Shown: one piece after another, positions 4,438 to 21,004 of the stretch
Layout of the letters: each line of letters starts with the position of its first letter
How positions within the stretch are numbered: position 1 is the stretch's first letter
NCBI GenBank assembly: GCA_027490055.1
Contig: JAIXYV010000096.1
Location: 1 to 35,649, forward strand
Reading direction: 5' to 3'
Source: Bacteroidota bacterium
GTDB lineage: Bacteria; Bacteroidota; Bacteroidia; NS11-12g; UBA955
Length of the DNA stretch: 35,649 nucleotides
The notes under the pieces: generated by a model
Seen by the model: only the letters and a program-made list of their open reading frames with translations
Told to the model about the DNA's origin: nothing
Databases searched by the model: none
Made by a program: the position numbers and the translations under genes

Positions 4438-6834
4438 ATGTCTTTATCAACGGCAAAAGATCTGAAAAATATGGATTTTGAGGCATTCAAAGCGGAAGTA
4501 TTAAATGATTACAAACTCGCATTTGAAAGTCGTCAAGCCAGTCTATTAGGTAGAAAAGAGGTATTAACTGGAAAAGCGAAATTCGGAATTTTCGGTGACG
4601 GAAAGGAAGTAGCACAAATTGCTATGGCCAAAGCGTTTAAGCATGGCGATACCAGAAGTGGATATTACCGCGATCAGACTTTCATGTTTGCCACAGGGAT
4701 GAACACTGTTCAGCAATTTTTTGCTCAGTTATACGCTCATACCGATGTTGAGGCAGAGCCAAACAGCGGTGGCAGAAGTATGAATGGCCACTTTGGGTCA
4801 AGATTGCTCGATGATCAGGGAAACTGGTTGCCACAGACAGATCGCTATAACTCTTCATCAGATATTTCTCCTACTGCTGGTCAGATGCCACGTTTATTAG
4901 GATTAGCATTGGCTTCAAAGTTATACAGACAAAATCCGGAATTACACCAATTCACTAATTTTTCTAACAAAGGTAATGAAGTAGCTTTCGGAACTATCGG
5001 TAACGCTTCTACGAGCGAAGGTGGTTTCTGGGAGGTGATTAATGCTGCTGGTGTTTTGCAAGTGCCAATGGTGATGAGTGTTTGGGATGACGGATATGGT
5101 ATTTCAGTTCCAGCAAAATATCAGACTACAAAAGAAAATATCAGCACTATTTTAAAAGGATTTAATTCTGATGAAAATGGTGTAGGTGTAGATATATACA
5201 ATGCAAAGGGATGGGATTATGCAGAACTTTGTCGCGTCTATCAGGAGGCGGTAGAGCATTCACGCACTAATCACAGACCAGTTTTGATTCATGTCAATGA
5301 AGTAACTCAGCCTCAGGGTCACAGTACTTCAGGTTCTCACGAGCGCTACAAAAGCAAAGAAAGATTACAGTGGGAAACAGATTTCGACTGTATCAAGAAA
5401 ATGCGTGAGTGGATAGAAGAAAACAAACTTGCCAGTGCTACAGAACTTGATACCATCGAATCGGATGCCATTCAGTTTGTAAATGATAGTAAAAAGAAAG
5501 CCTGGGAGGCCTATTTAGCGCCATTGAAGCAAGATGTAGCAGAGGTTATTTCGGTGTTAGAACAATTCTCACATCAAGCTGCTGCTGAAGCCATCGCTGA
5601 TTTAAAATCTACAAAGGATGCCATCAGAAAGGATATTGGTATGGCTATCAATAAAGTTTTAATTGCTACTATTGGCAACAATACCTCTGAAAGACAGAAT
5701 TTAAAGGACTATTACAGCAATTTTCTTGCAAAGAATTTTGAACGCTACTCTTCAAATCTTCATAGTACCTCTGCAAACAGTGTTGAAGCAGTGCCAGAAG
5801 TTAAGGCCGAATTTAATGATGATGTTATCGTAGATGGTCGTGAAGTTGTTCTTGCCTGTTTTGATGCTGCACTTGGTCGCGACCCTAGAGTGTTTGCATT
5901 TGGTGAGGATGTTGGAACAATTGGCGATGTGAACCAGGGTTTTGCTGGTATGCAGGAGAAATACGGCGAGATTCGTGTATCTGATACAGGCATCAGAGAA
6001 TTAAGTATAATCGGTCAGGGTATTGGAGCAGCCATGAGAGGTTTGCGTCCAATAGCTGAAATTCAATATCTGGATTATTTACTGTATGCTATTCAGATTA
6101 TGAGCGATGATATTGCTACTATGCAATACCGCACAAAAGGTGGTCAGAAAACGCCTATAATTATCAGAACCAGAGGTCACAGACTCGAAGGTATCTGGCA
6201 TAGCGGATCACCAATGGGCATGATTGTACACGCGGTAAGAGGCATGCACGTTTGTGTTCCAAGAAACATGACTCAAGCTGCTGGTATGTATAATTTGTTG
6301 CTTCAGGCAGATGAGCCAGCTTTAGTGGTTGAGTGTTTGAATGGCTACCGTTTAAAAGAGAGAATGCCTAGCAATATCGGCGAATTTACAGTGCCACTTG
6401 GTCAGCCAGAAGTGTTGCAAGAAGGTAGCGATGTGACGATTGTAAGTTATGGCAGCACACTGAGAATTATCCAGGATGCGATGAAAAAATTGTCGGCAGC
6501 AGGTATCTCATGCGAGCTAATCGATGTGCAGACATTATTGCCGTTCGATACTAAACATACCATCGTTGAATCGTTAAAGAAAACCAATAAAGTGGTGTTC
6601 ATTGATGAAGATGTTCCGGGCGGAGCAACTTCGTATATGATGCAAAAAGTATTGGAGGAGCAGAATGGTTATTTACACCTGGATGCCAAGCCTCAAACCA
6701 TTTCAGCCAAGGCTCACAGACCAGCCTATGGTACAGATGGTGACTACTTCTCTAAACCGAATGCTGAAGATATATTCATAGCCATTTATTCAATGATGCA
6801 TGAATACAATCCAACTCAGTATCCTGAATTCTAA
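4438..6834 (+). CDS. 2-oxoacid dehydrogenase E1, alpha-beta fusion
   Basis: Thiamine-dependent E1 component of a 2-oxoacid dehydrogenase complex, 798 residues. The alpha half (about 12-380) and beta half (about 460-798), usually two polypeptides, are one chain. It decarboxylates a 2-oxo acid and passes the acyl group to a lipoyl E2. The alpha ThDP motif reads G188-N-A ... WDDG (216-219) where the textbook form is GDG ... NN. HSTSGSHERY corresponds to the phosphorylation-loop region of alpha subunits. In the beta half DTGIRELSIIGQGIGAA holds the expected cofactor-activating Glu (E521). Long Bacteroidota fusions of this type are usually annotated as branched-chain 2-oxoacid (or pyruvate) E1, sometimes as 'transketolase'; the substrate cannot be decided here and no E2/E3 gene is in the window. 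The start at 4438 is set by the promoter and by similarity. Confidence 0.92.
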   Translation: MSLSTAKDLKNMDFEAFKAEVLNDYKLAFESRQASLLGRKEVLTGKAKFGIFGDGKEVAQIAMAKAFKHGDTRSGYYRDQTFMFATGMNTVQQFFAQLYAHTDVEAEPNSGGRSMNGHFGSRLLDDQGNWLPQTDRYNSSSDISPTAGQMPRLLGLALASKLYRQNPELHQFTNFSNKGNEVAFGTIGNASTSEGGFWEVINAAGVLQVPMVMSVWDDGYGISVPAKYQTTKENISTILKGFNSDENGVGVDIYNAKGWDYAELCRVYQEAVEHSRTNHRPVLIHVNEVTQPQGHSTSGSHERYKSKERLQWETDFDCIKKMREWIEENKLASATELDTIESDAIQFVNDSKKKAWEAYLAPLKQDVAEVISVLEQFSHQAAAEAIADLKSTKDAIRKDIGMAINKVLIATIGNNTSERQNLKDYYSNFLAKNFERYSSNLHSTSANSVEAVPEVKAEFNDDVIVDGREVVLACFDAALGRDPRVFAFGEDVGTIGDVNQGFAGMQEKYGEIRVSDTGIRELSIIGQGIGAAMRGLRPIAEIQYLDYLLYAIQIMSDDIATMQYRTKGGQKTPIIIRTRGHRLEGIWHSGSPMGMIVHAVRGMHVCVPRNMTQAAGMYNLLLQADEPALVVECLNGYRLKERMPSNIGEFTVPLGQPEVLQEGSDVTIVSYGSTLRIIQDAMKKLSAAGISCELIDVQTLLPFDTKHTIVESLKKTNKVVFIDEDVPGGATSYMMQKVLEEQNGYLHLDAKPQTISAKAHRPAYGTDGDYFSKPNAEDIFIAIYSMMHEYNPTQYPEF

Positions 6835-6891: not shown

Positions 6892-7929
6892 TTATTCTGC
6901 TTCCTCAGTTTCGCGTAATCTAATGACTCTTTTCTTCGTATATTTATTACGAATAAAGATGTAAACGGCGCATAAAGTAATCGTAAATATAAAGAGAATA
7001 CTCAGCTGTGCCGACAAACGACCCTGAAGTGGTAAGGCAATTACTATGACATTGATTAATGCCTGTAATGAGGCATAAATGATAGAAATATTGACATGTT
7101 TGTATTTGCCGACATGCACTAGTTTTTTGAACAGGAAGTCGCGGTGCGGCACAAAGATATTTTCTCTCAGTAACAGTTTGAATATTACGGTTAGGCCAGC
7201 ATCAATTCCAAATACAGAAAACAACAAGAAATAGGCGTAGTTACCTGTTTTAAAGATAAGATTCAGCATCAGATACAGGACAATAAATGCCAGGGCAATA
7301 CTGCCGGTATCTCCGGCAAATACAATGGCCTTTCGCCTTAAATTTAAACCAAGGAATATAGAAACACCAATGATGTAAGTGTAGAGAAATTCGTTTCTGA
7401 TAAAACTGATTTGGTTGCCTTGAATATCAACTGAATTAGAGTTTAACCAAAGGAAACTAAGGAGTATAACCAGATTGGTCAATCCAAGCATACCATTGAT
7501 CCCATCCATGAAATTGAAAGCGTTTAAAACACCTATACCCAGAATAACAATGGCGATGATTAAAGGGATTTTTTCGAAATCCATCATGTAGTTAAATGGC
7601 AGTTCGATGGCCATTAATACAAGAGCGAATATCTGAAAAACAAGCCGTATAAAATGTTTGACAAAAACCAGATCATCGATATAACTAATGGTCGAAATCA
7701 TTAGCAATCCAATGATAAAAAAGGATTTTAGGGTATAGGGAAATGCAACACTGTAGAGCAATAAACCAAAGAGTACAAAAACGCCAAAACCGGTGATGGT
7801 TCTATTTAAATGCGAACTTCGTCCAACAGGATGATCATAAATTTTATAGAAATGCGCTATTCTGATGTACATCAGAGTGAATATGATGAAACAAACAGGA
7901 GCTATTAAATAATAGTAGAATTTAAGCAT
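6892..7929 (-). CDS. WecA/MraY-family polyprenyl-phosphate sugar-1-phosphate transferase
   Basis: Integral membrane enzyme of the polytopic phosphoglycosyltransferase family (glycosyl transferase family 4), 345 residues with about ten hydrophobic helices. It transfers a sugar 1-phosphate, probably HexNAc-1-P, from a UDP-sugar to undecaprenyl phosphate and so starts a surface glycan. Family motifs are in order: SYIDD (82-86), NAFNFMDGINGM (136-147), FAGDTGS (204-210) and the basic loop PHRDFLFKKLVH (261-272). MraY proper would sit in a division/cell-wall cluster, so WecA/TagO-like is the better fit. The start overlaps the end of the acyl-CoA ligase gene by 8 bases, indicating an operon with the ligase and the GT2 fusion. 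The exact sugar is unknown. Confidence 0.88.
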   Translation of the reverse strand: MLKFYYYLIAPVCFIIFTLMYIRIAHFYKIYDHPVGRSSHLNRTITGFGVFVLFGLLLYSVAFPYTLKSFFIIGLLMISTISYIDDLVFVKHFIRLVFQIFALVLMAIELPFNYMMDFEKIPLIIAIVILGIGVLNAFNFMDGINGMLGLTNLVILLSFLWLNSNSVDIQGNQISFIRNEFLYTYIIGVSIFLGLNLRRKAIVFAGDTGSIALAFIVLYLMLNLIFKTGNYAYFLLFSVFGIDAGLTVIFKLLLRENIFVPHRDFLFKKLVHVGKYKHVNISIIYASLQALINVIVIALPLQGRLSAQLSILFIFTITLCAVYIFIRNKYTKKRVIRLRETEEAE

Positions 7930-9811
7930 TTTCTTTCTGATACAATTTTTCTATCCAATAGTTATAGCGTTCTTCAATCAGTTTTCTTTTTTGCTTCAAA
8001 GTTACGGTCAATTCTCCTGATTCAATAGAAAAAGGCTTTCTTTTAATAATAAAATCTCTGATACGGGCATAGTTAGACAGCGACTGTGATAATTTCTTGA
8101 TGTCTTCTTCTATCCATGTCTTAATTTTTTCATCAATAATGACATCATCATCTGATTCAAAAAAGTCTTTATTTAAGGCGAAGAAATCTCTTAAATGCTC
8201 TTCTTTAGGAATGATAATAGCTGTCACATATTCTTTCTTATCACCGATGATGAAGATCTGTTCAATTTTATCACTTTGTAGATAGGTGTTTTCAATCGGA
8301 GTAGGATAGATGTTCTTACCCAGACTGGTTTTCAGCATATTTTTGTATCTGTCAGTGATTTTTAAGTACCCTTTTTCAAATTTACCAATATCACCTGTAT
8401 GGAACCAGCCTTCAGCATCCATTACCAGGGCTGTTTCGGTAGGGTTGTTATAGTAGCCTTTCATGATATTCGGACCTTTACAAAGAATTTCTCCTTCTAA
8501 AGATTCAAAATCAGGCTTAAAACTATCGTAAGTCTGCACCGTAATAAACGCTTTAGTTTCTATGTCCTGAATAGCGACTTGCTGGCGCGGAGCAACACGT
8601 CCACTGGTTCCGTGCACTTGTCTTTCAAACTCATTAACGGTTACAAAAGGCGAAGTTTCAGTTAATCCGTAACCTTGTTGACAGCGAATACCAACATTGC
8701 CGAAGAATTCGCCAATATGCTGAGGCAAAGCACCGCCACCAGAAACTAGTAGTTTAAGTTTACCGCCGAGTTTAGCTTTAATTTTACTGAAGACCAGTTT
8801 CTCGGCAATAGCATGTTTAATCGCCAGCCATGGTCCTATCATTTTTTTGTCGTCTTTTCTAAGACGGTATTGTTCACCAACCTTTAAACTCCAGAAAAAT
8901 ATTTTAGCACTGATGCCACCTTTGGCTTCGGCATTGGCTCTAATTCTACCTTCTAATCGCTCTAACAATCTTGGCACACAAGTCATGATACTAGGATGCG
9001 CCTCCATGAAGTTCTGAGCAATTTTTTCTATGCTTTCGGCAAAGGCAATCTGTGCACCGATGTAGGTAGGCAAATAGTACCCTGCCATGCGCTCGTAAAC
9101 GTGACTTAAAGGAAGGAATGACAGAAATCGATCTTCTTTATTGATACTTGGACAGAGATCTATCGCATCGTAACAATTGCTCATGAAATTGTAATGACTA
9201 AGCATGGTGCCTTTCGGAACACCGGTAGTCCCACTGGTATAAATCAAAGCCGCCAGATCATCGTGATGTATGGTTGGTAAAATGGCTTCAATCTCAGTCT
9301 TGTGAGATGACCAAAGTTGGGCACCTTCAAGTTTTACTGTATCTACTTTAATGAATTTACTGTCTTCTGATTTAGCATCAAATGCCAGAAATACATGTTT
9401 AATATTAGGGCAATCAGATTCTACTTTCTGGAATTTCTTTAGCAAGAAAGGGTTGCCTACTAAGACAGCTTTACTTTCGCTATCATTTAAAATAAATGCC
9501 GTTTCATCAGGTGTTAGGGTAGGGTAAATCGAAACATTTACTGCACCTAATTTCTGTAAAGCCTGATCAAAATAAATAAATTCAGGACAGTTTTCGAGAA
9601 CAATGGCTAGTTTATCGCCTTTTTTTACACCAATATTATGAAGGTAAGCTGCCCATTTTTCGATGTTGCTGATGGTTTCTTTATAACTAATAGATTGGTA
9701 GTCTTTGCCTACCTTTTCCATTAAGAAAGTGTGTTCAGGTGAGTGTACCTTATATGCACTGTTTAGAAGAAATTCATGAAGTGAACCGAACTCAGGGTCT
9801 TTAACTGCCAT
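7922..9811 (-). CDS. Long-chain acyl-CoA synthetase (AMP-forming)
   Basis: ANL-superfamily adenylating enzyme, 629 residues, activating a fatty acid with ATP and CoA. Visible motifs: P-loop YTSGTTGVPKG (191-201), A5-type GYGLTE (380-385), WFHTGD (469-474) with the ribose-binding Asp, and hinge region ITDRYKNMLKTSLGKNIYP (485-503) with the C-terminal lysine of the K-N-I-Y-P type. Length and the S-L-G-K-N motif resemble FadD15-like long-chain acyl-CoA synthetases rather than medium-chain or acetyl-CoA enzymes. It starts 5 bases after the GT2 stop and overlaps the WecA-like gene by 8 bases, so the three are almost certainly co-transcribed. Fatty-acid use for beta-oxidation or lipid synthesis is equally possible; a role in acylating the glycan lipid would be pure inference from context. 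Confidence 0.92.
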   Translation of the reverse strand: MAVKDPEFGSLHEFLLNSAYKVHSPEHTFLMEKVGKDYQSISYKETISNIEKWAAYLHNIGVKKGDKLAIVLENCPEFIYFDQALQKLGAVNVSIYPTLTPDETAFILNDSESKAVLVGNPFLLKKFQKVESDCPNIKHVFLAFDAKSEDSKFIKVDTVKLEGAQLWSSHKTEIEAILPTIHHDDLAALIYTSGTTGVPKGTMLSHYNFMSNCYDAIDLCPSINKEDRFLSFLPLSHVYERMAGYYLPTYIGAQIAFAESIEKIAQNFMEAHPSIMTCVPRLLERLEGRIRANAEAKGGISAKIFFWSLKVGEQYRLRKDDKKMIGPWLAIKHAIAEKLVFSKIKAKLGGKLKLLVSGGGALPQHIGEFFGNVGIRCQQGYGLTETSPFVTVNEFERQVHGTSGRVAPRQQVAIQDIETKAFITVQTYDSFKPDFESLEGEILCKGPNIMKGYYNNPTETALVMDAEGWFHTGDIGKFEKGYLKITDRYKNMLKTSLGKNIYPTPIENTYLQSDKIEQIFIIGDKKEYVTAIIIPKEEHLRDFFALNKDFFESDDDVIIDEKIKTWIEEDIKKLSQSLSNYARIRDFIIKRKPFSIESGELTVTLKQKRKLIEERYNYWIEKLYQKENA

Positions 9812-9816
9812 TATAT

Positions 9817-11787
9817 TTATTTTGATGTTGCGAAGTTATTAGAAAAAAATGCTTTTGCAAGTATATCTAAATCATTCTGCCACTGATAGCTGGCGGCGTA
9901 CATATAATTTAGATTTTGTAAAAGCTGAGGATCTGATACACTGTTACTTACCATCTGACCTATCATAAAGACTGCAGGTTTTAATTGAGGTAAATTGCTT
10001 GTATCAACCCTGTTGTTATAGCCTACCCAGGTGTAATTCCCTTTTAAACACTGTGCAAAGTGCTTAATTACTACTTTAAGGAATTGCCATTTTAAAATTA
10101 ATATTGGCAATAGTGGAATGAGGGCAATGCTAATGATAATATCCATCCATCGTTTCTTATTCAGAATTTCAGGATTGCTAAGTGCTAAAGTAATATCGAC
10201 ACTATAAAATTCTCCGGTGGTATTTTTTGAATTACTGCCAATGATATAAGCCCCTTTCTCAGGCATGATTTTATATTTTGCGCCAGTTTTTCCGGCATTT
10301 CCCATAATGCTCATAATATCTGCACTGCTGACATCTGCAGCACAGAAGATGATCTCGTTGGCTTTGTATAATTCAGTAAGTAGTGGCAGATTATCTATGC
10401 TTCCCATCCATTCACCATGTTCTTCGTTTTTAAATGGTTTAATAAAACCGAGCAACTTAAATCTGGATGGGTAGTTTAAAAGGATTTCTTTTACTCTTTG
10501 GCATTCAGACTGACTACCAACAATTAAAACCTGCGATTTTTGAGAAGCGGCTGTGTCAAGATGTTTGTACTTTATGAAATGGAACAACATTCTAACAGCA
10601 ATGGTTATAAGCATGGTCCACACCGCGCCTAATAGAATTAGGGCTCTCGAGAAGCGCATAGATTCAGGCAATAATGCATAGATGGCCAGAAGCACCATAC
10701 TGCCTAAAATGACCCCTCTGCCAGTTTTGTTAAATTTGAATGGCTCACTATACCCGCCGCTTAACCATATACCACCTTGCCAGAGTAAGATATAAGCCGG
10801 CACATGGAACATCAGATATTCGTCAGGGTAAAATCCGCCTACAACATATTTGTTGTAGACTTCCCAATACCTCATGATGCCGTAGTAGCCAATAAAAATC
10901 AGCAGAAAATCAAATATGAAAAGTTTGAGCGTATTAAAAAGTCTAATAAAAAGTGCAATGGCTGCACGAGCAAAAATGGCTGCGTTAATACAGGTTGTAA
11001 ACCACCATCCCTGTTGTTTGGAAAAGTGTTTTCTGGCAAATTTTGCCATGGCCTGATAAAATATCTTGACATAGTTGATACTATGTTTTTTAGTGCTTTC
11101 CCCTTTGTAGTGAATGATGGTGGTATCGGCAAAGTAATAATTGTCATAACCACCCTTTACAATGCGATAACTTAAGTCGATGTCTTCGCCGTACATAAAG
11201 AAAGATTCATCCAGCAGTCCAACTTCATCCAGCGCTTTCTTTCTGATCAGCATAAATGCGCCGCTGAGAATATCCACTTTATTGTTTTCGAATTCGCTTA
11301 AAAAGCCTAAGTGATAGGCGCCAAAGGTTTTTGATTTTGGAAATATTTTAGCCAGGCCGCTCATTTTGTAGAAAGCAACGGCAGGAGTAGGTAAACCTCT
11401 TTTAGACTCAGGCAGGAAATCGCCACGACCATCAATCATGCGAACGCCCAGTGCGCCAGCATTTGGATGGGCATCCATAAAGCTAACGGTTTTGGTGAGG
11501 GTATCTTCGCCAATGACAGTATCTGGATTAAGCAGAAGAACATATCTGCCTTTTGAAAGGCGAATTCCTTGATTATTAGCTTTACTAAATCCCAGGTTTT
11601 CCTTGTTTTCGATAAGGATAGCCTGAGGAAATTTTTCTTTAACCATACTGCAAGAATCGTCTGCAGAGCGGTTGTCAACTACTATCACCTCTACGCTTAG
11701 ATGTTGCACAGCCTTGTATACTGAAAGCAAAGTTTGCTCCAGTAAAGCTTTTACATTGTAATTGACAATTATTACCGATAGATCCAT
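9817..11787 (-). CDS. GT2 glycosyltransferase fused to a WcaJ-like membrane module with degenerate C-terminus
   Basis: 656 residues in two parts. Residues 1-255 form a GT-A glycosyltransferase family 2 domain of the rhamnosyltransferase/WbbL sort: VIIVNYN, VVDNRSAD, LLNPDT (85-90), and the acceptor-site region FMYGEDIDLSYR (197-208). Residues 265-405 hold about four hydrophobic helices; 417-545 look like the nucleotide-binding CoA_binding_3-type domain (SQVLIVGSQSE) of WcaJ-like polyprenol phosphoglycosyltransferases. The tail (544-650) keeps the family's KRWMDI, LKGNYTWVGY, LPQLKP and final LNYMYAASYQWQNDLDI landmarks. It lacks the middle catalytic stretch with the RSM segment and the Asp-Glu dyad of the canonical DELPQ motif. 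It is the first gene of the operon with the ligase and WecA-like enzyme. GT2 activity is likely; phosphosugar transfer by the tail is unlikely. Confidence 0.85.
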   Translation of the reverse strand: MDLSVIIVNYNVKALLEQTLLSVYKAVQHLSVEVIVVDNRSADDSCSMVKEKFPQAILIENKENLGFSKANNQGIRLSKGRYVLLLNPDTVIGEDTLTKTVSFMDAHPNAGALGVRMIDGRGDFLPESKRGLPTPAVAFYKMSGLAKIFPKSKTFGAYHLGFLSEFENNKVDILSGAFMLIRKKALDEVGLLDESFFMYGEDIDLSYRIVKGGYDNYYFADTTIIHYKGESTKKHSINYVKIFYQAMAKFARKHFSKQQGWWFTTCINAAIFARAAIALFIRLFNTLKLFIFDFLLIFIGYYGIMRYWEVYNKYVVGGFYPDEYLMFHVPAYILLWQGGIWLSGGYSEPFKFNKTGRGVILGSMVLLAIYALLPESMRFSRALILLGAVWTMLITIAVRMLFHFIKYKHLDTAASQKSQVLIVGSQSECQRVKEILLNYPSRFKLLGFIKPFKNEEHGEWMGSIDNLPLLTELYKANEIIFCAADVSSADIMSIMGNAGKTGAKYKIMPEKGAYIIGSNSKNTTGEFYSVDITLALSNPEILNKKRWMDIIISIALIPLLPILILKWQFLKVVIKHFAQCLKGNYTWVGYNNRVDTSNLPQLKPAVFMIGQMVSNSVSDPQLLQNLNYMYAASYQWQNDLDILAKAFFSNNFATSK

Positions 11788-11868: not shown

Positions 11869-14800
11869 TTACTTCCTTATCAAGTTGATGGTACCATTGG
11901 TTTTGTAAATGGTTTCAGGCGCAATAGCAAAACTGTATTCGAAAATGTAGTAATAGGTCCCATCAGAGCAAGTTGCGCCATTGTTTTTAACCTTGCCATT
12001 CCAGTTATTGCCATCGCCAGGTTCTGCATCCTCGAATCCTTCGTATACTACTACTCCCCAGCGGTCGTAAATAGTTAAATGATATTTGTCTTCTCCTTCA
12101 ATGCTTACCTCATAGTCGTCGTTGAATCCATTGGAGGTTTCAGGTGTAAAGACATTGTAGAGGGTTATAAATTCTTTGTAGTCGTTATAAATTGGTTTGC
12201 ATATACTGTCTTTACATTTATTGAAAACAGAGGCAGTCAGGCATACATTGAATCTACCATTTACTCTGCCATAATTGTGGAAAGGGTTTTGTTCGGTAGA
12301 ACTGTTTTTGTCTCCAGAACCTGGATCGCCAAAATCCCATTTAAGATCGGCATACGAAGGATCTGAAAGATTTTTAAATTTAAATATCGGTGCTTTGCTG
12401 TCCGAACTTATTTCAAAATCAGCTTCAACTCCAAGAACAGTTATGGTTCTGAAGGCAGAATCAATGCAAACAGGTTCGCCAATACCAAAATTATATACGG
12501 GCTTGTAACTGATAATAAATGTGCCTGTTTTACCGTAGTTATGTCCAGCTTTTGGATTGAAGGCCTGGATATATTTGGTGTAGTCTCCAAAATCCCATCT
12601 TACTGAATTTACATTGCTTTCGCAGTTAAATAAGGCGGTTTGACCAAGGCAAATGGTATCTGGACCGGTGAAACGGGCATATTTAGTGTCGTAAACAGTT
12701 ACACCGTTTTTAGGATCAAAGTTTTCGTGGCAATAGTAAACCGCACCAGTATATGGATTATAAAAAGTGTCTATACCAATAAGTTTTGGGTAGTATTTTC
12801 CAGCTTTCAGATACTTGAAAGTCTGGTCTTTTTTAGTCCTGTCCTCAATCGTGGTATTGTCCATGTCGTCGAACTCCCAGATATAGCTGGAGCATTTTCT
12901 CGAGATATTCTTAAAACTCACGGTCAGAGGTGCGCATCCAATAGTATCTGTAAGAGTAAATTTAGGTAAAGATCCTATCACTTTTATGTCAAATTTGACG
13001 GTGTCTCTACAGCCATTATTGTCTTCGATAATATGTAAGGTATTGATAATGCTATCTTCCAGGTTAAATGATCTGAAAGGATTTTTTTCTGCCGTGGTGT
13101 ACATACCAGAACCGAAATCCCACAAAAAGCTGTTGATTATATCGCCTTTCTTGCTTTTGATGTAATAAGAAGAGTCAAATAACTGTTTTAGTTCGCTACA
13201 GAAAGAAATTCTGGAATCACTCAATATGCCGGCTTTTAGTTCTCTGATAAATAGATCTTGTCTCAAAGTGTCAATACAGCCAAGCATATCTTCTGCAATC
13301 ATCATTACCTGCGTGCTGTCATTATTGATGAACTTTTCGCAATAAGGTTCACCTTTAAACCCTTTTTTATTATAGTCGCTGAACCAGGTGACATTTTTCA
13401 GTTTATTGTAGTTTGAGTCATTGTTGTAATTATCAATTTCAGATGAGAAGCAAATAGTTTCTCTGATACATTCTTTACCGTTTCTGCGCAGAAACAGACC
13501 CTTGCCAAATCGTATTTTCAGTTTTCGGGTTCTTACACAACCTTCGTGTGAAGTAAAGGATAGCGATAAGAAAGTGTCGAGTCCTGTTAACCTGTAGCGA
13601 TGTTTGACTGATTTCAGAACAGAATCTTTATCAAATATGATTTCTTCAGAATAACCATCCTTCCAGTCGATTCGCACTCTGTCACCCATAATAAAATTGG
13701 GGTTAACAAATTCTATTTCAGCTTCAAATGGATTACAAATATTTGTAATTTTCAACCTTAAAGCGGTATCCATTGTTTCATTCACCCACAGGAAATTGTC
13801 TACAAACACAGTGTCAAGCCAGGTGCTGTCACTTCTGTAAATTTTGATTGAATCGTCGCCAAAATCTTCAGCTCTATCTGGCTCTTTGTTTTCGAAGATG
13901 AAAGCTACGCCATACAATCCTTTATAAGGTTTATTGATTTGTGAAGGGAAGTTTAACCAGGTTTTACCGGTGTCAAGGGAAAAGTATTTTGGTCCGATTT
14001 CATTTTCTCTCAATCTTAAAAAAGTGTCCCCCTGGCATATTGTTATCATTCCGCCACGCTTACATAAACGACAATGGAAGTGTTCCATCTTATCAACTGT
14101 ACTATCAGAGCATCCTACAGAAGTGTCAGTAACTGAGAGCAAAATGGGATTACTGCCCCGAGGGGTGGTGTAATTGTGTTTACCAAACCAGTCGCGACCA
14201 TAGTTGCAGTTTTTATATTTATTTTGATTGGCTGACCTGTTGATGACGCAATTTTCGCCGTCAGGATCAATTAGTGTCCAACGATAAATAGCATGCTTTC
14301 TATTCAGGTTGAGAGATGTGTCAATAAAAAACACTTTTTTATCAATGCCGCATTGTTTCTGATTAAATACTTTAATACGGGCAACAGGACCTTTTACTCT
14401 GAAATTAACGGTATTGCTTACCTGGCACGGACCTTTCGTAACTGTACAAACCATTTGGTGTTTACCCGGTCCTGCAGATATTCCCTTAGGCAGAGTGGTA
14501 AGATTAGGATTGTTATGATGCAAATTCCGTCCATCTATAAGCCAGGTATAATTGTATCCTGTTCCGCCAGTATTGCTAAAAGTAATGTTCTGACCAGAGC
14601 CAAAACAAAATAGAGAATCATTAATGCTGAATGTATTGGAGATAGTGTCTGCATCCAGTTGAATGCTTATGCTATCTTTGGTCATACAAGTATTGTCTGG
14701 ATTGCTTAAAATCAATTCTGCAGTTACTTTTCTACTTTTATTGGTTTTAATACAACTGACTTTGGCATAACTTAAGGATTGCCAGCCTGTTTTGTCGATA

Positions 14801-15495
14801 TTCCATAAATACGTTTGATTGCTATTAGAAGATTCAGATATATTACTGAAACACACTTCAGCCTCGCCACAGCCAGGGTAGGTAATTTCTTTTTTTATTT
14901 TAGCCAGGGTGCCGTTAATGACTTTGACATTGGTGATTGCAGAGCCCTTGCAACCTTTATCATCTGTCACTTCCATCTTAATTTTGTAAACATCCTTCAT
15001 TTTGTAATGATGAGACATAATATCTCCCATCTGACGGTTGTTGTCTAAATCAAAATTGCCATCACCCCACACCATTAAACGTTTAACAATTCTATTGCTT
15101 CCAGAGGCCAAGGAAGAGTCTTTTAATTTAAATAAATTAGTATATAAACAGGTGTCAGAATTTGGTTGTAGTAACATTTTAGCAATCGGCAGATCGTGTA
15201 CGATAATGGTAACAGAGTCACGGATAGTGCCACTTCCATTATTGGTCATTTGTAGTCGGATGACAAAGGTCCCTCCAGATTTATATAAATGAAATGGTGC
15301 TTTACTCGCCGAGGTAAATCCATCGCCAAAGTCCCAGCGGTATGTAGTGGCTGCCGTATTAGTATTGAAATACGCCAGATTGCCCAGGCAAACATCTTTT
15401 TGTGTGATGATATTAGTTGCACTGAGTTTGTTTCCAACAAGCAAAAATAGAAACAGTAGAGAATACTTAAACAAAGATTGAAGTGGTTTTAACAT
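11869..15495 (-). CDS. PKD-repeat surface protein with gliding-motility/T9SS type B C-terminal domain
   Basis: 1208-residue exported protein. A signal peptide (about 1-26, hydrophobic core SLLFLFLLVG) is followed by roughly ten Ig-like repeats. The clear PKD ones carry YRWDFGDG near residue 52 and, close to the C-terminus, FLWDFGSG, YIWEFDD, VRWDFGDY and LKWDFGDP; more diverged units lie between. The last ~95 residues (LYNVFTPETSNGFND, YHLTIYDRWGVVVYEG, W-N-G-K, C-S-D-G-T-Y-Y-Y-I-F) are the 'gliding motility-associated C-terminal domain', the type B sorting signal that sends proteins through the type IX secretion system (T9SS) to the surface. Many cysteines suggest disulphides. It stands alone between its own promoter region and the polysaccharide operon. 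Likely an adhesin or structural surface protein; ligand unknown. Confidence 0.9.
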   Translation of the reverse strand: MLKPLQSLFKYSLLFLFLLVGNKLSATNIITQKDVCLGNLAYFNTNTAATTYRWDFGDGFTSASKAPFHLYKSGGTFVIRLQMTNNGSGTIRDSVTIIVHDLPIAKMLLQPNSDTCLYTNLFKLKDSSLASGSNRIVKRLMVWGDGNFDLDNNRQMGDIMSHHYKMKDVYKIKMEVTDDKGCKGSAITNVKVINGTLAKIKKEITYPGCGEAEVCFSNISESSNSNQTYLWNIDKTGWQSLSYAKVSCIKTNKSRKVTAELILSNPDNTCMTKDSISIQLDADTISNTFSINDSLFCFGSGQNITFSNTGGTGYNYTWLIDGRNLHHNNPNLTTLPKGISAGPGKHQMVCTVTKGPCQVSNTVNFRVKGPVARIKVFNQKQCGIDKKVFFIDTSLNLNRKHAIYRWTLIDPDGENCVINRSANQNKYKNCNYGRDWFGKHNYTTPRGSNPILLSVTDTSVGCSDSTVDKMEHFHCRLCKRGGMITICQGDTFLRLRENEIGPKYFSLDTGKTWLNFPSQINKPYKGLYGVAFIFENKEPDRAEDFGDDSIKIYRSDSTWLDTVFVDNFLWVNETMDTALRLKITNICNPFEAEIEFVNPNFIMGDRVRIDWKDGYSEEIIFDKDSVLKSVKHRYRLTGLDTFLSLSFTSHEGCVRTRKLKIRFGKGLFLRRNGKECIRETICFSSEIDNYNNDSNYNKLKNVTWFSDYNKKGFKGEPYCEKFINNDSTQVMMIAEDMLGCIDTLRQDLFIRELKAGILSDSRISFCSELKQLFDSSYYIKSKKGDIINSFLWDFGSGMYTTAEKNPFRSFNLEDSIINTLHIIEDNNGCRDTVKFDIKVIGSLPKFTLTDTIGCAPLTVSFKNISRKCSSYIWEFDDMDNTTIEDRTKKDQTFKYLKAGKYYPKLIGIDTFYNPYTGAVYYCHENFDPKNGVTVYDTKYARFTGPDTICLGQTALFNCESNVNSVRWDFGDYTKYIQAFNPKAGHNYGKTGTFIISYKPVYNFGIGEPVCIDSAFRTITVLGVEADFEISSDSKAPIFKFKNLSDPSYADLKWDFGDPGSGDKNSSTEQNPFHNYGRVNGRFNVCLTASVFNKCKDSICKPIYNDYKEFITLYNVFTPETSNGFNDDYEVSIEGEDKYHLTIYDRWGVVVYEGFEDAEPGDGNNWNGKVKNNGATCSDGTYYYIFEYSFAIAPETIYKTNGTINLIRK

Positions 15496-19318: not shown

Positions 19319-21004
19319 TTAATCCTCCAGCTTTACCGACATTAACGAAAACAATACCTTGCGTTTGCTTGCAAGAATGTGGATTAATTCATTATCAGTT
19401 ACTGGTACAAAGTCAGCAAATATATATTTTCTTTTTTTGTAGATGTCAGACTCTTTGAAGGCTGAGATTGTGCTGGCAGTATTGTCTAATTTAACCTGTC
19501 CACCGCCCGTTTTTGTAATGATATATAATTTATCGTTGGCATATAAAGAAGAGTAGTCTTTGCTTATTGGGGCTGAGGTTTCATAATGGTGGAAGACGTA
19601 CCCGAAATTCACGATCTTACCTTCGGCATCCAGTTTAAAGGCTAATATATCGCTGTATACATAGTAGGTAACTGTTCTGGTTGTTGTCTGTCCTTTTGAG
19701 TTAGTAGTGGTATAAGTAACAGTGTAGGTGTAGTGCTTCTGACCAACGACTATTAGTTCATTACTATCATTATAGTGAACAGCGCCAAGATTAATGAATC
19801 TATAAATGTAATCAAGTTTGATTTCTTTTGCGGGTTTGCTGTTCGATTTAGGTTTGCTGGCCTTGCCGGTTTTGACAGGTTTTTCTTTGGCAGGCTTTTT
19901 GTCTTTTGAAGCAGGTGGTTTCAACTCGCTAATCTGTTTAACTAAGTCTACACCAAACTCCTGTCTGTTTTCTGCCAGAACTTCTGCAGTTGCCAGGTTC
20001 ACTTGCTGAGAAAAAATCCCTTTGGCGCCATAGCGACCACTGCCAAGTAAGCCGATAACAGCAACATTACCAGTTTTTGGATTTAGCTTTAGAGTTGCAG
20101 AATAGAAGTATTCGCCATTGGCAAAGGTTAGATCGGTGCTTTCGCCATCTGGTTTGATGATTTTCATGACAAGTTTAGAAGAATTAGATTCTTCATCACT
20201 GTCAATATCGCCAAACATCTTTTTCTTTCCTTTTGTTTGTGTGGCTTCTTCAAAACCAAGGAAACACATATTTCCTAGATTGTCGAAAGTTTGTCCAATA
20301 ACTTCGGTATTCCCTTTGCCAAATTTAACATTCTTACCAATGTTCAATAAGGTAAAATCTTTATCAATTAACCAGTAAGAAAAGGTGTGATTTTTTTGAG
20401 CAGCTGCAGCTTTGCGTTCTTTACGACTCTGCCAAACGTTGGTTCTGTCTGAGGTAATCAACATCTTCTGATAATCAGATGTAACGCTAACCTGATATAA
20501 ACTTGCAATACGTTTGTCTTTTTTGGTAATTCCAGTCTCTGCCATTTTGTATGGTTTACCAATCGTTTTGAAAGATTTTAAATCAATCATTTGAGCAAAC
20601 AGATATTGTTTCATCTGTTTTCTGTTGTTAAAATAAAAAATCGCACAAAGATTATCGCCAAAGCGCTTTAAAGTTAAAGAGTTTACCGATTTATTGAAAA
20701 ATTCTGCTGGAATAGTGGCAACGGATTTAACATTCATTCTGGCATCCAGTTTGTAAATTTTGAAATCAGAATTTACAATATAGGGAATGCCATAAATCAA
20801 GTAATTTTTGAACATCAAATCGTATTTCTTGCCAATTACATAATAGTAATCACCAACTTTTACTGCATTAGGAAACGAAGATGTTCTGTCATTGTATGCA
20901 GGTTTGTATTCGGTACCTTTAACTTCTTTTATCTGGTTATTTTTCTGTGCTGATGCATATAAGGACATCATCAGCATGAGACATATGGTTATAAAATTCT
21001 TCAT
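19319..21004 (-). CDS. Secreted protein of unknown function
   Basis: 561 residues with a signal peptide (MKNFITICLMLMMSLYASAQ, cleavage near 20). The body has repeated short beta-type segments with aromatic residues (DYYYVIGKKYDL, LCAIFYFNN, MCFLGFEE, VAVIGLLGSGRYGAKG, LYIITKTGGGQV). These read like blades of a propeller, but I recognise no family. A lysine/proline/serine-rich linker at about 362-396 separates a C-terminal part with a Tyr/Thr-rich stretch (HYTYTVTYTTTNSKGQTTTR). It follows the outer-membrane barrel gene by 11 bases and is co-transcribed with it. Periplasmic or outer-membrane location is likely; function unknown. Confidence 0.7.
   Translation of the reverse strand: MKNFITICLMLMMSLYASAQKNNQIKEVKGTEYKPAYNDRTSSFPNAVKVGDYYYVIGKKYDLMFKNYLIYGIPYIVNSDFKIYKLDARMNVKSVATIPAEFFNKSVNSLTLKRFGDNLCAIFYFNNRKQMKQYLFAQMIDLKSFKTIGKPYKMAETGITKKDKRIASLYQVSVTSDYQKMLITSDRTNVWQSRKERKAAAAQKNHTFSYWLIDKDFTLLNIGKNVKFGKGNTEVIGQTFDNLGNMCFLGFEEATQTKGKKKMFGDIDSDEESNSSKLVMKIIKPDGESTDLTFANGEYFYSATLKLNPKTGNVAVIGLLGSGRYGAKGIFSQQVNLATAEVLAENRQEFGVDLVKQISELKPPASKDKKPAKEKPVKTGKASKPKSNSKPAKEIKLDYIYRFINLGAVHYNDSNELIVVGQKHYTYTVTYTTTNSKGQTTTRTVTYYVYSDILAFKLDAEGKIVNFGYVFHHYETSAPISKDYSSLYANDKLYIITKTGGGQVKLDNTASTISAFKESDIYKKRKYIFADFVPVTDNELIHILASKRKVLFSLMSVKLED

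Follow-up and report, generated by a model that had tools for sequence, protein, structure and literature searches.

The locus described here raises the question of why a glycosyltransferase should carry, at its C-terminus, most of an Lg-PGT, a large monotopic phosphoglycosyltransferase (PGT) of the WbaP/WcaJ type, from which the catalytic stretch is missing. The gene lies on a contig of a Bacteroidota bacterium (NS11-12g; UBA955; assembly GCA_027490055.1, contig JAIXYV010000096.1), and the whole stretch of 35,649 nucleotides that was analyzed is referred to as the window. The original prediction described a complete GT2 domain followed by a tail with the layout of WcaJ-type initiating enzymes, and proposed that this tail is a non-catalytic membrane dock holding a second-sugar transferase next to the product of a WecA-like enzyme encoded in the same cluster. 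The features of the locus are collected in Table 1.

Table 1. Features of the fusion gene and its neighbors in the window (residues refer to the fusion protein).
Feature	Position	Strand	Evidence and remarks
GT2/pseudo-Lg-PGT fusion, 656 residues	9817..11787	-	ORF and translation, family alignment A1, AlphaFold model
GT2 catalytic domain, residues 1-255	11023..11787	-	Pfam, invariant columns, structure matches to glycosyltransferase enzymes
Four-helix membrane bundle (predicted), residues ~257-407	10567..11019	-	AlphaFold helices; tail aligned to WbaP 8t53
Rossmann-like DUF (PF13727/CoA_binding_3-like), residues ~416-515	10243..10542	-	Weak Pfam match, 8t53 and 3nkl matches, alignments of reduced tails
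IIGSNS...G stretch, residues 515-531, site of the WbaP domain-swapped β-hairpin	10195..10245	-	Invariant G517 and S518; pLDDT low in the monomer model
Re-entrant-helix remnant with KR-x2-D, residues 539-582	10042..10173	-	Invariant K545 and D549; hhalign
Site of the lost catalytic stretch, residues 567-580	10048..10089	-	PGT model ~302-371 (RSM and DELPQ) absent
C-terminal PGT remnant (LKGNYTWVGY, LPQLKP, LNYMYAASYQWQNDLDI), residues 581-648	9844..10047	-	hhalign; PF02397 match in sister-class member L163
AMP-binding acyl-CoA ligase-like gene	7922..9811	-	Pfam; between the fusion and the WecA-like gene, almost no spacing; neighbor only
WecA-like polytopic PGT	6892..7929	-	Pfam PF00953; local neighbor, no conserved partner

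The N-terminal domain is a GT2 glycosyltransferase, as judged from its GT-A fold and invariant motifs. Residues 4-189 match the GT2 family PF00535 of Pfam (E 1.3e-25), and the sequences NPDT (N87-P88-D89-T90) and GEDID (G200-E201-D202-I203-D204), which we take to be the metal and base motifs of the GT-A fold, are invariant in all 80 rows of the family alignment A1. This alignment holds the window protein and 79 relatives; the best 80 of at least 589 relatives were kept from a scan of GTDB contigs, matching from residue 1-3 through 639-656, and L053, with a 559-residue frame, was left out. The structural matches of the domain are glycosyltransferase enzymes, with Z-scores of up to 25.7. The same GT2 fold occurs in the rhamnosyl/fucosyltransferases, represented by TIGR01556 (E 5.9e-17, below cut-off) and WrtF (entries 9om*, Z 24.1-24.8). 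Unlike the fusion, the WrtF chains comprise 254-271 residues without such a tail.

The remainder of the protein has the four-helix bundle and the PF13727 DUF of Lg-PGTs, as well as their re-entrant helix with KR-x2-D and their C-terminal landmarks. The tail profile aligned by hhalign with a profile of 53 intact Lg-PGTs over 371 columns (probability 99.85, E 8.7e-30), and the KKRWMD, LKW, and LKGN landmarks are located at residues 544, 565, and 581. TIGR03025 (EPS_sugtrans) of NCBIfam matches residues 292-565, below the cut-off for a whole protein, and the match spans positions 2-278 of the 445 in the profile, ending where the catalytic domain starts. In Pfam, CoA_binding_3 matches residues 364-483 below cut-off only (E 0.0011), and PF02397 gave no match in the window protein. 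Column identity averages 58% over the whole protein and 47% over the tail, within which E428, G517, S518, K545, D549, Y630, and D639 are invariant in all 80 rows.

The AlphaFold model of the full-length protein, computed with the 79 relatives, has a mean pLDDT of 86.8 and contains the membrane helices. We folded the tail alone (mean pLDDT 86.7) because structure searches with the whole model returned glycosyltransferases in the 50 matches listed. The tail alone is predicted to fold like WbaP of Salmonella (8t53), the sole Foldseek match with an E-value of 0.001 or less (E 4.5e-8). WbaP was also the top row in VIA-align (Z 13.0, 323 residues, r.m.s.d. 7.3, model residues 1-368), followed by 3nkl over the DUF (Z 10.9); a VIA-align Z-score of about 13 may arise by chance for helical bundles, and the 8t53 match agrees with the sequence evidence. 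By analogy with WbaP, the helices of the fusion would cross the membrane. The two proteins share the four-helix bundle, the DUF (PF13727), the position of the hairpin, the re-entrant helix, and the C-terminal landmarks, whereas the fusion lacks the RSM region and the Asp-Glu dyad and has an additional N-terminal GT2 domain. The region between the DUF and the PGT domain of WbaP is described as a β-hairpin swapped between the DUFs of the dimer, which the AlphaFold monomer misplaces (PMC10942596). The corresponding stretch of the fusion is found at the position expected from WbaP, and confidence in the monomer model is low there, with pLDDT values under 50 for residues 520-531.

What the tail lacks is the catalytic stretch. 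The only long gap in the alignment with the Lg-PGTs covers the stretch from RSM to DELPQ (FRSM at 330 and DELPQ at 366 of the PGT model), after which the alignment resumes at LKGDMSLVG/LKGNYTWVG. The window tail matches the PGT model over 7-301 (E 6.7e-22), and 60-70 residues, including the RSM region and the Asp-Glu dyad, are absent relative to an Lg-PGT. The DE.PQ, RSM-type, and VGPRP motifs occur in none of the 80 rows of A1 and in none of 35 members from sister classes, a set that omits loci without a called full-length fusion, either because overlapping frames displaced it or because it was shorter than 600 residues. All three motifs are present in each of the 27 intact PGTs from the same loci. 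This control is partly circular for DE.PQ because 23 of the 27 had been named by the DE-x-PQ pattern, while the RSM-type and VGPRP motifs played no part in naming them. The median spacing between KR-x2-D and the next LKG-type motif, measured with a loose pattern, is 36 residues in A1 (range 22-101, 64 of 80 rows measurable) and 44 in the sister-class members (30-71, 23 of 35), as compared with 98 in the intact PGTs (95-98, 26 of 27).

The loss of the catalytic stretch is old and would have preceded the split of the classes examined; the decay of the PGT core is less advanced in the sister classes. The fusion from one sister-class locus (L163) matches PF02397 above cut-off (E 3.4e-10), only over positions 96-178 of 179 in the profile, and, unlike the window protein, also CoA_binding_3 (PF13727) above cut-off. 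Of 296 genomes from the phylum, 211 contain a match to the family model at E 1e-60, reduced and GT2-only relatives included. As candidates for an intact GT2-PGT ancestor, we considered nine matches ending near residue 565 in frames of 687-739 residues and rejected them, as their tails hold a linker and no core; an intact GT2-PGT fusion was not found among the PF02397 matches listed for the phylum. Three members of the family may be noted. A full-length member (L238, G314:C33:51472-53403) contains one in-frame stop codon, a member from a record titled Alphaproteobacteria (L063), possibly a binning error, is placed among Bacteroidota rows in the tree, and another (L094:4158-7253) is called as a 1031-residue frame with about 300 residues ahead of the GT2 match.

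With regard to the protein itself, the original prediction was well borne out. The GT2 domain is complete over residues 1-255, the tail has the anticipated WcaJ-type layout with the end landmarks where they had been placed, and the stretch with RSM and the Asp-Glu dyad is indeed gone between LKW and LKGN in all 115 members. The HMM searches agree, with CoA_binding_3 below cut-off only and no match to PF02397 in the window protein. The absent core, the hhalign result, and the WbaP-like fold predicted for the isolated tail likewise support a tail that is non-catalytic and derived from an Lg-PGT. The deletion is not a sequencing error, since at least 589 of at least 591 candidate stretches encode relatives, and the homologues surveyed have the same deletion throughout. 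The suggested role as a second-sugar transferase is plausible.

Natural deletions indicate which part of the tail is retained. Thirteen reduced orthologues from the families f19, f5, and f3 comprise 365-409 residues from the GT2 start and end in a short tail, in which the four transmembrane helices and the PGT remnant are absent and the DUF is kept. The ten reduced tails from Bacteroidia align to the DUF and the hairpin stretch (columns 131-248, probability 98.1, E 1.3e-13), the three from f19 align there more weakly (probability 92.5, E 4.7e-7), and neither set gave a convincing match to intact PGTs. IGS or VGS is kept in nine of the thirteen; the three f19 proteins have IGP, and one (L107) is without the motif. 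In the best GT2 tree (84 rows, midpoint root, bootstrap unsettled), the reduced members of the three families sit at separate places among 65 full-length members, and the full or reduced label changes five times, with four changes forced by well-supported branches. A well-supported branch sets f19 apart from the reduced Bacteroidia proteins, and the branches separating f5 from f3 have less support (90/74, 88/76); therefore, at least two losses of the membrane part are firm and three occur on the best tree. In five of the reduced loci (L108-L111 and L113), the genes are arranged as they are around full-length members (E2, exonuclease, FAH), and L112 has recR. This scattering among full-length forms, within their gene order, argues that the ancestor most likely had the full tail and that shrinkage removes the helices together with the PGT remnant and spares the DUF. 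One genome (G095) keeps the GT2 domain only, in a 283-residue frame, and no orthologue at E 1e-30 was found in six of 20 re-searched genomes, all six of which are SprA-positive. Thus, neither the tail nor even the gene as a whole is required in every case. SprA was detected in 117 of 148 genomes. A correlation of the family with T9SS was considered and carries little weight because it is mostly absence in one clade: the 20 listed of the 31 misses are G002 and 19 genomes of a single family, f18.

The neighborhoods of the gene point to a partner of the same class as the tail. An intact Lg-PGT is encoded nearby in 28 of 40 sister-class loci, compared with one of the 80 relatives and one of 20 further loci (L103-L122). 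The first 20 sister-class loci are no random sample because they were picked mostly for an early-ending match; among the second 20, picked about one per family, 14 have the Lg-PGT, and the sample as a whole has it in 20 families. Wherever the fusion and the adjacent Lg-PGT were both called, they are on the same strand (26 of 26), separated by 713-3394 bp. A small GT2 gene resembling polyprenyl-phosphate sugar synthases (Pfam GT2; NCBIfam AglJ and PpgS below cut-off) is present in 21 of the 36 sister-class loci with a called fusion, and a flippase-like gene is found in seven of 40 (Polysacc_synt in L163). Loci from Bacteroidia often contain housekeeping genes, namely recR-like in 42 of 80 and 2-oxoacid dehydrogenase E2-like in 29 of 80, names that were read from the sequences and not from a family search. 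In the genome of the window, the fusion, the PGT, and the Dpm-like gene are on three contigs; the small GT2 of one sister-class locus (L163:8272-8991) has a 53% identical homologue there (G000:C60:9594-10298).

In a tree of 75 PGTs, from a sample that favors high-scoring PF02397 matches, one group of 62 rows (support 100/100) contains 22 of the 27 adjacent PGTs, 25 of the 28 Bacteroidia PGTs, and one PGT of the genome itself (L001); L156, an 827-residue frame, was left out of the tree and of the 27. The Bacteroidia rows of this group and L001 form 26 rows with support of 100/100. The other group holds five adjacent PGTs, three Bacteroidia PGTs, and a second PGT of the genome (L002). The L001-type PGT loci of Bacteroidia encode a lipoprotein-like protein (19 of 21) and an oxidoreductase-like protein (15 of 21), and no fusion was called in these 21 loci. 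The oxidoreductase-like, lipoprotein-like, and Lg-PGT genes form a conserved Bacteroidia cluster (L173:3188-6447, where the Lg-PGT of the genome itself is at 5032-6444, and L212-L231), and the 302-residue member from the genome itself matched neither a Pfam family at 0.001 nor an NCBIfam family at 1e-5.

The reading that we favor, with a probability of roughly one half, is that an active GT2 domain would add the second sugar to the undecaprenyl-PP-sugar made by an intact Lg-PGT, with which the dead Lg-PGT tail would pair. The tail would be a whole Lg-PGT minus its catalytic stretch, with the transmembrane bundle, the DUF, and the swapped-hairpin stretch as the kept chassis. Its DUF and hairpin would contact the DUF of a cognate, intact Lg-PGT in the way that two WbaP chains contact each other, and this pairing would place the GT2 domain over the freshly made lipid-linked sugar. 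In the genome of the window, we infer the PGT on contig C52 to be the partner. We favor this reading because the GT2 motifs are invariant, the tail is homologous to Lg-PGTs throughout, an Lg-PGT is linked in the sister classes, and the DUF is kept in the reductions. Against the pairing stand the scarcity of PGTs near the Bacteroidia fusions (one of 80 and one of 20 loci), the three separate contigs in the genome itself, the five of 27 adjacent PGTs that fall into the other PGT group, and the low model confidence of the hairpin stretch. The adjacency in the sister classes may also be partly shared descent of one operon. The absence of the hairpin motif from L107, its change to IGP in f19, and the lineages that have the GT2 domain alone or no orthologue at E 1e-30 count against this reading as well.

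The DUF of WbaP is reported to be stabilized by UMP, UDP, and UTP and to bear most of the homodimer contact (PMC10942596), which would suit a tail that forms homodimers and senses nucleotides, i.e., UMP and NDPs as the products of the PGT and glycosyltransferase steps, as a feedback module without any PGT partner. Such a module would also account for the DUF as the part kept after loss of the membrane part and for a PGT near the gene in only one of 80 Bacteroidia loci. We regard it as possible but rather unlikely, since it leaves unexplained why 28 of 40 sister-class loci encode an intact Lg-PGT and why Y630 and D639 of the PGT remnant are invariant.

It is improbable that the tail is a leftover membrane anchor without a partner, the scar of an old bifunctional enzyme. 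Several lineages have been reduced to GT2 plus DUF or to GT2 alone, and the tail is less conserved than the whole protein, as a scar might be; however, seven of its residues, listed above, are invariant in 80 of 80 rows, and the separate reductions keep the same part.

A membrane dock that holds the GT2 domain at the product of the WecA-like enzyme, as originally proposed, has still less chance of being correct. The two genes lie close together on one strand, both in the window and in two near relatives (L003 and L004), and the WecA-like protein appears intact, as had been predicted, with the motifs DD at 85, NAFNFMDG at 136, GDTGS at 206, and PHRD at 261. Yet the trio of fusion, acyl-CoA ligase, and WecA-like genes is common to only these two of the 80 relatives, and a WecA-like neighbor is found in two of 80 relatives, in none of 40 sister-class loci, and in none of the 20 further loci (L103-L122), so that the dock would explain the gene arrangement of the window, L003, and L004 only. 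No polytopic PGT is known to us to pair with a tail derived from a PGT. The WecA-like enzyme as partner is therefore not supported. The idea of a membrane dock survives in part: the model contains membrane helices, but the reduced orthologues of f19, f5, and f3 drop the helices and keep the DUF. Residual phosphosugar transfer through other residues, for which the PGT landmarks kept on both sides of the deletion might speak, is highly improbable, as none of the 115 members examined has any of the three motifs of the catalytic region, and the stretch that would contain them is gone.

Two further proteins of the window may be mentioned here. A 1208-residue protein with PKD repeats and a type IX sorting domain of the CHU_C kind is encoded at 11869-15495 (minus strand), 81 bases upstream of the fusion gene and on the same strand, and a 561-residue protein at 19319-21004 (minus strand) gave no match to any Pfam family at E 0.1.

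Monotopic PGTs to which a functional domain is fused have been described as Bi-PGTs (PMC10942596), and the fusion shares with them a functional domain on a PGT chassis. In contrast to a Bi-PGT, it is not bifunctional because none of the 115 members examined retains the active PGT core. A search of the open-license literature found no description of a GT2 enzyme with a dead Lg-PGT tail; as far as that literature shows, domains fused to a monotopic PGT are known, and this combination is new.

A studied relative probably exists in P. gingivalis, for which the A-linking saccharide that tethers T9SS cargo has a proposed order of WbaP, GtfC, GtfF, and VimF (PMC13086638; earlier PMC7468200). In that scheme, GtfC (PGN_0361/PG0264) shares with our preferred reading a GT2 enzyme acting second, after the Lg-PGT WbaP (PMC13086638). 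The gtfC mutant is reported to be non-pigmented, with gingipain activity increased in the medium and decreased in cells (PMC7755767), and PG0264 appears in the table of T9SS candidates of a comparison of 24 genomes (PMC5053529). A published primer (PMC7755767), which we took to lie toward the 5' end of gtfC, encodes LEQCLL in one of the three frames of its reverse complement. LEQCL within the first 60 residues is found in 58 of 1821 ORFs, all 58 belonging to the fusion family, in loci mostly centered on the family; within A1, LEQCLL is exact in five of 80 rows, LEQC in 49, and LEQ in 71. None of the peptides encoded by the other gtfC primers was matched in the analyzed loci. A P. gingivalis genome, sought by primer, was not found: an exact match occurred in none of 395 genomes (three matches with two mismatches), 0 of 17, and 0 of 86. 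GtfC is thus a likely studied relative of the fusion, a lead from six residues and the literature. FpgA of Flavobacterium psychrophilum, a 319-residue GT2 enzyme (PMC4293000), was considered and is a different protein.

If GtfC is an orthologue, there is already genetic evidence for a second-sugar step that follows an Lg-PGT, and the fusion family would be tied to the T9SS anchor glycan. The O-glycan core is the other candidate pathway. The machinery for the O-glycan core shared among Bacteroidota is described as not identified in a 2025 review (PMC12871550), and the O-glycan transferases identified in P. gingivalis were inferred to add two HexNAc sugars (PMC8729774).

How a second transferase locates a rare lipid-linked sugar is, in our judgement, an open question in glycan assembly, and the tail makes it testable because it names a class of partner, the Lg-PGT, and a contact, the DUF hairpin. 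We tentatively suggest, as a broader possibility of lower likelihood than the pairing itself, that heterodimers of a pseudo-PGT and a catalytic Lg-PGT, formed by hairpin exchange, might serve as a channel between the first and second sugars, ancestral to Bacteroidota, for conserved surface glycans such as the anchor of T9SS cargo. The fusion family also offers a candidate, found across the phylum, for the early stages in the assembly of conserved Bacteroidota glycans.
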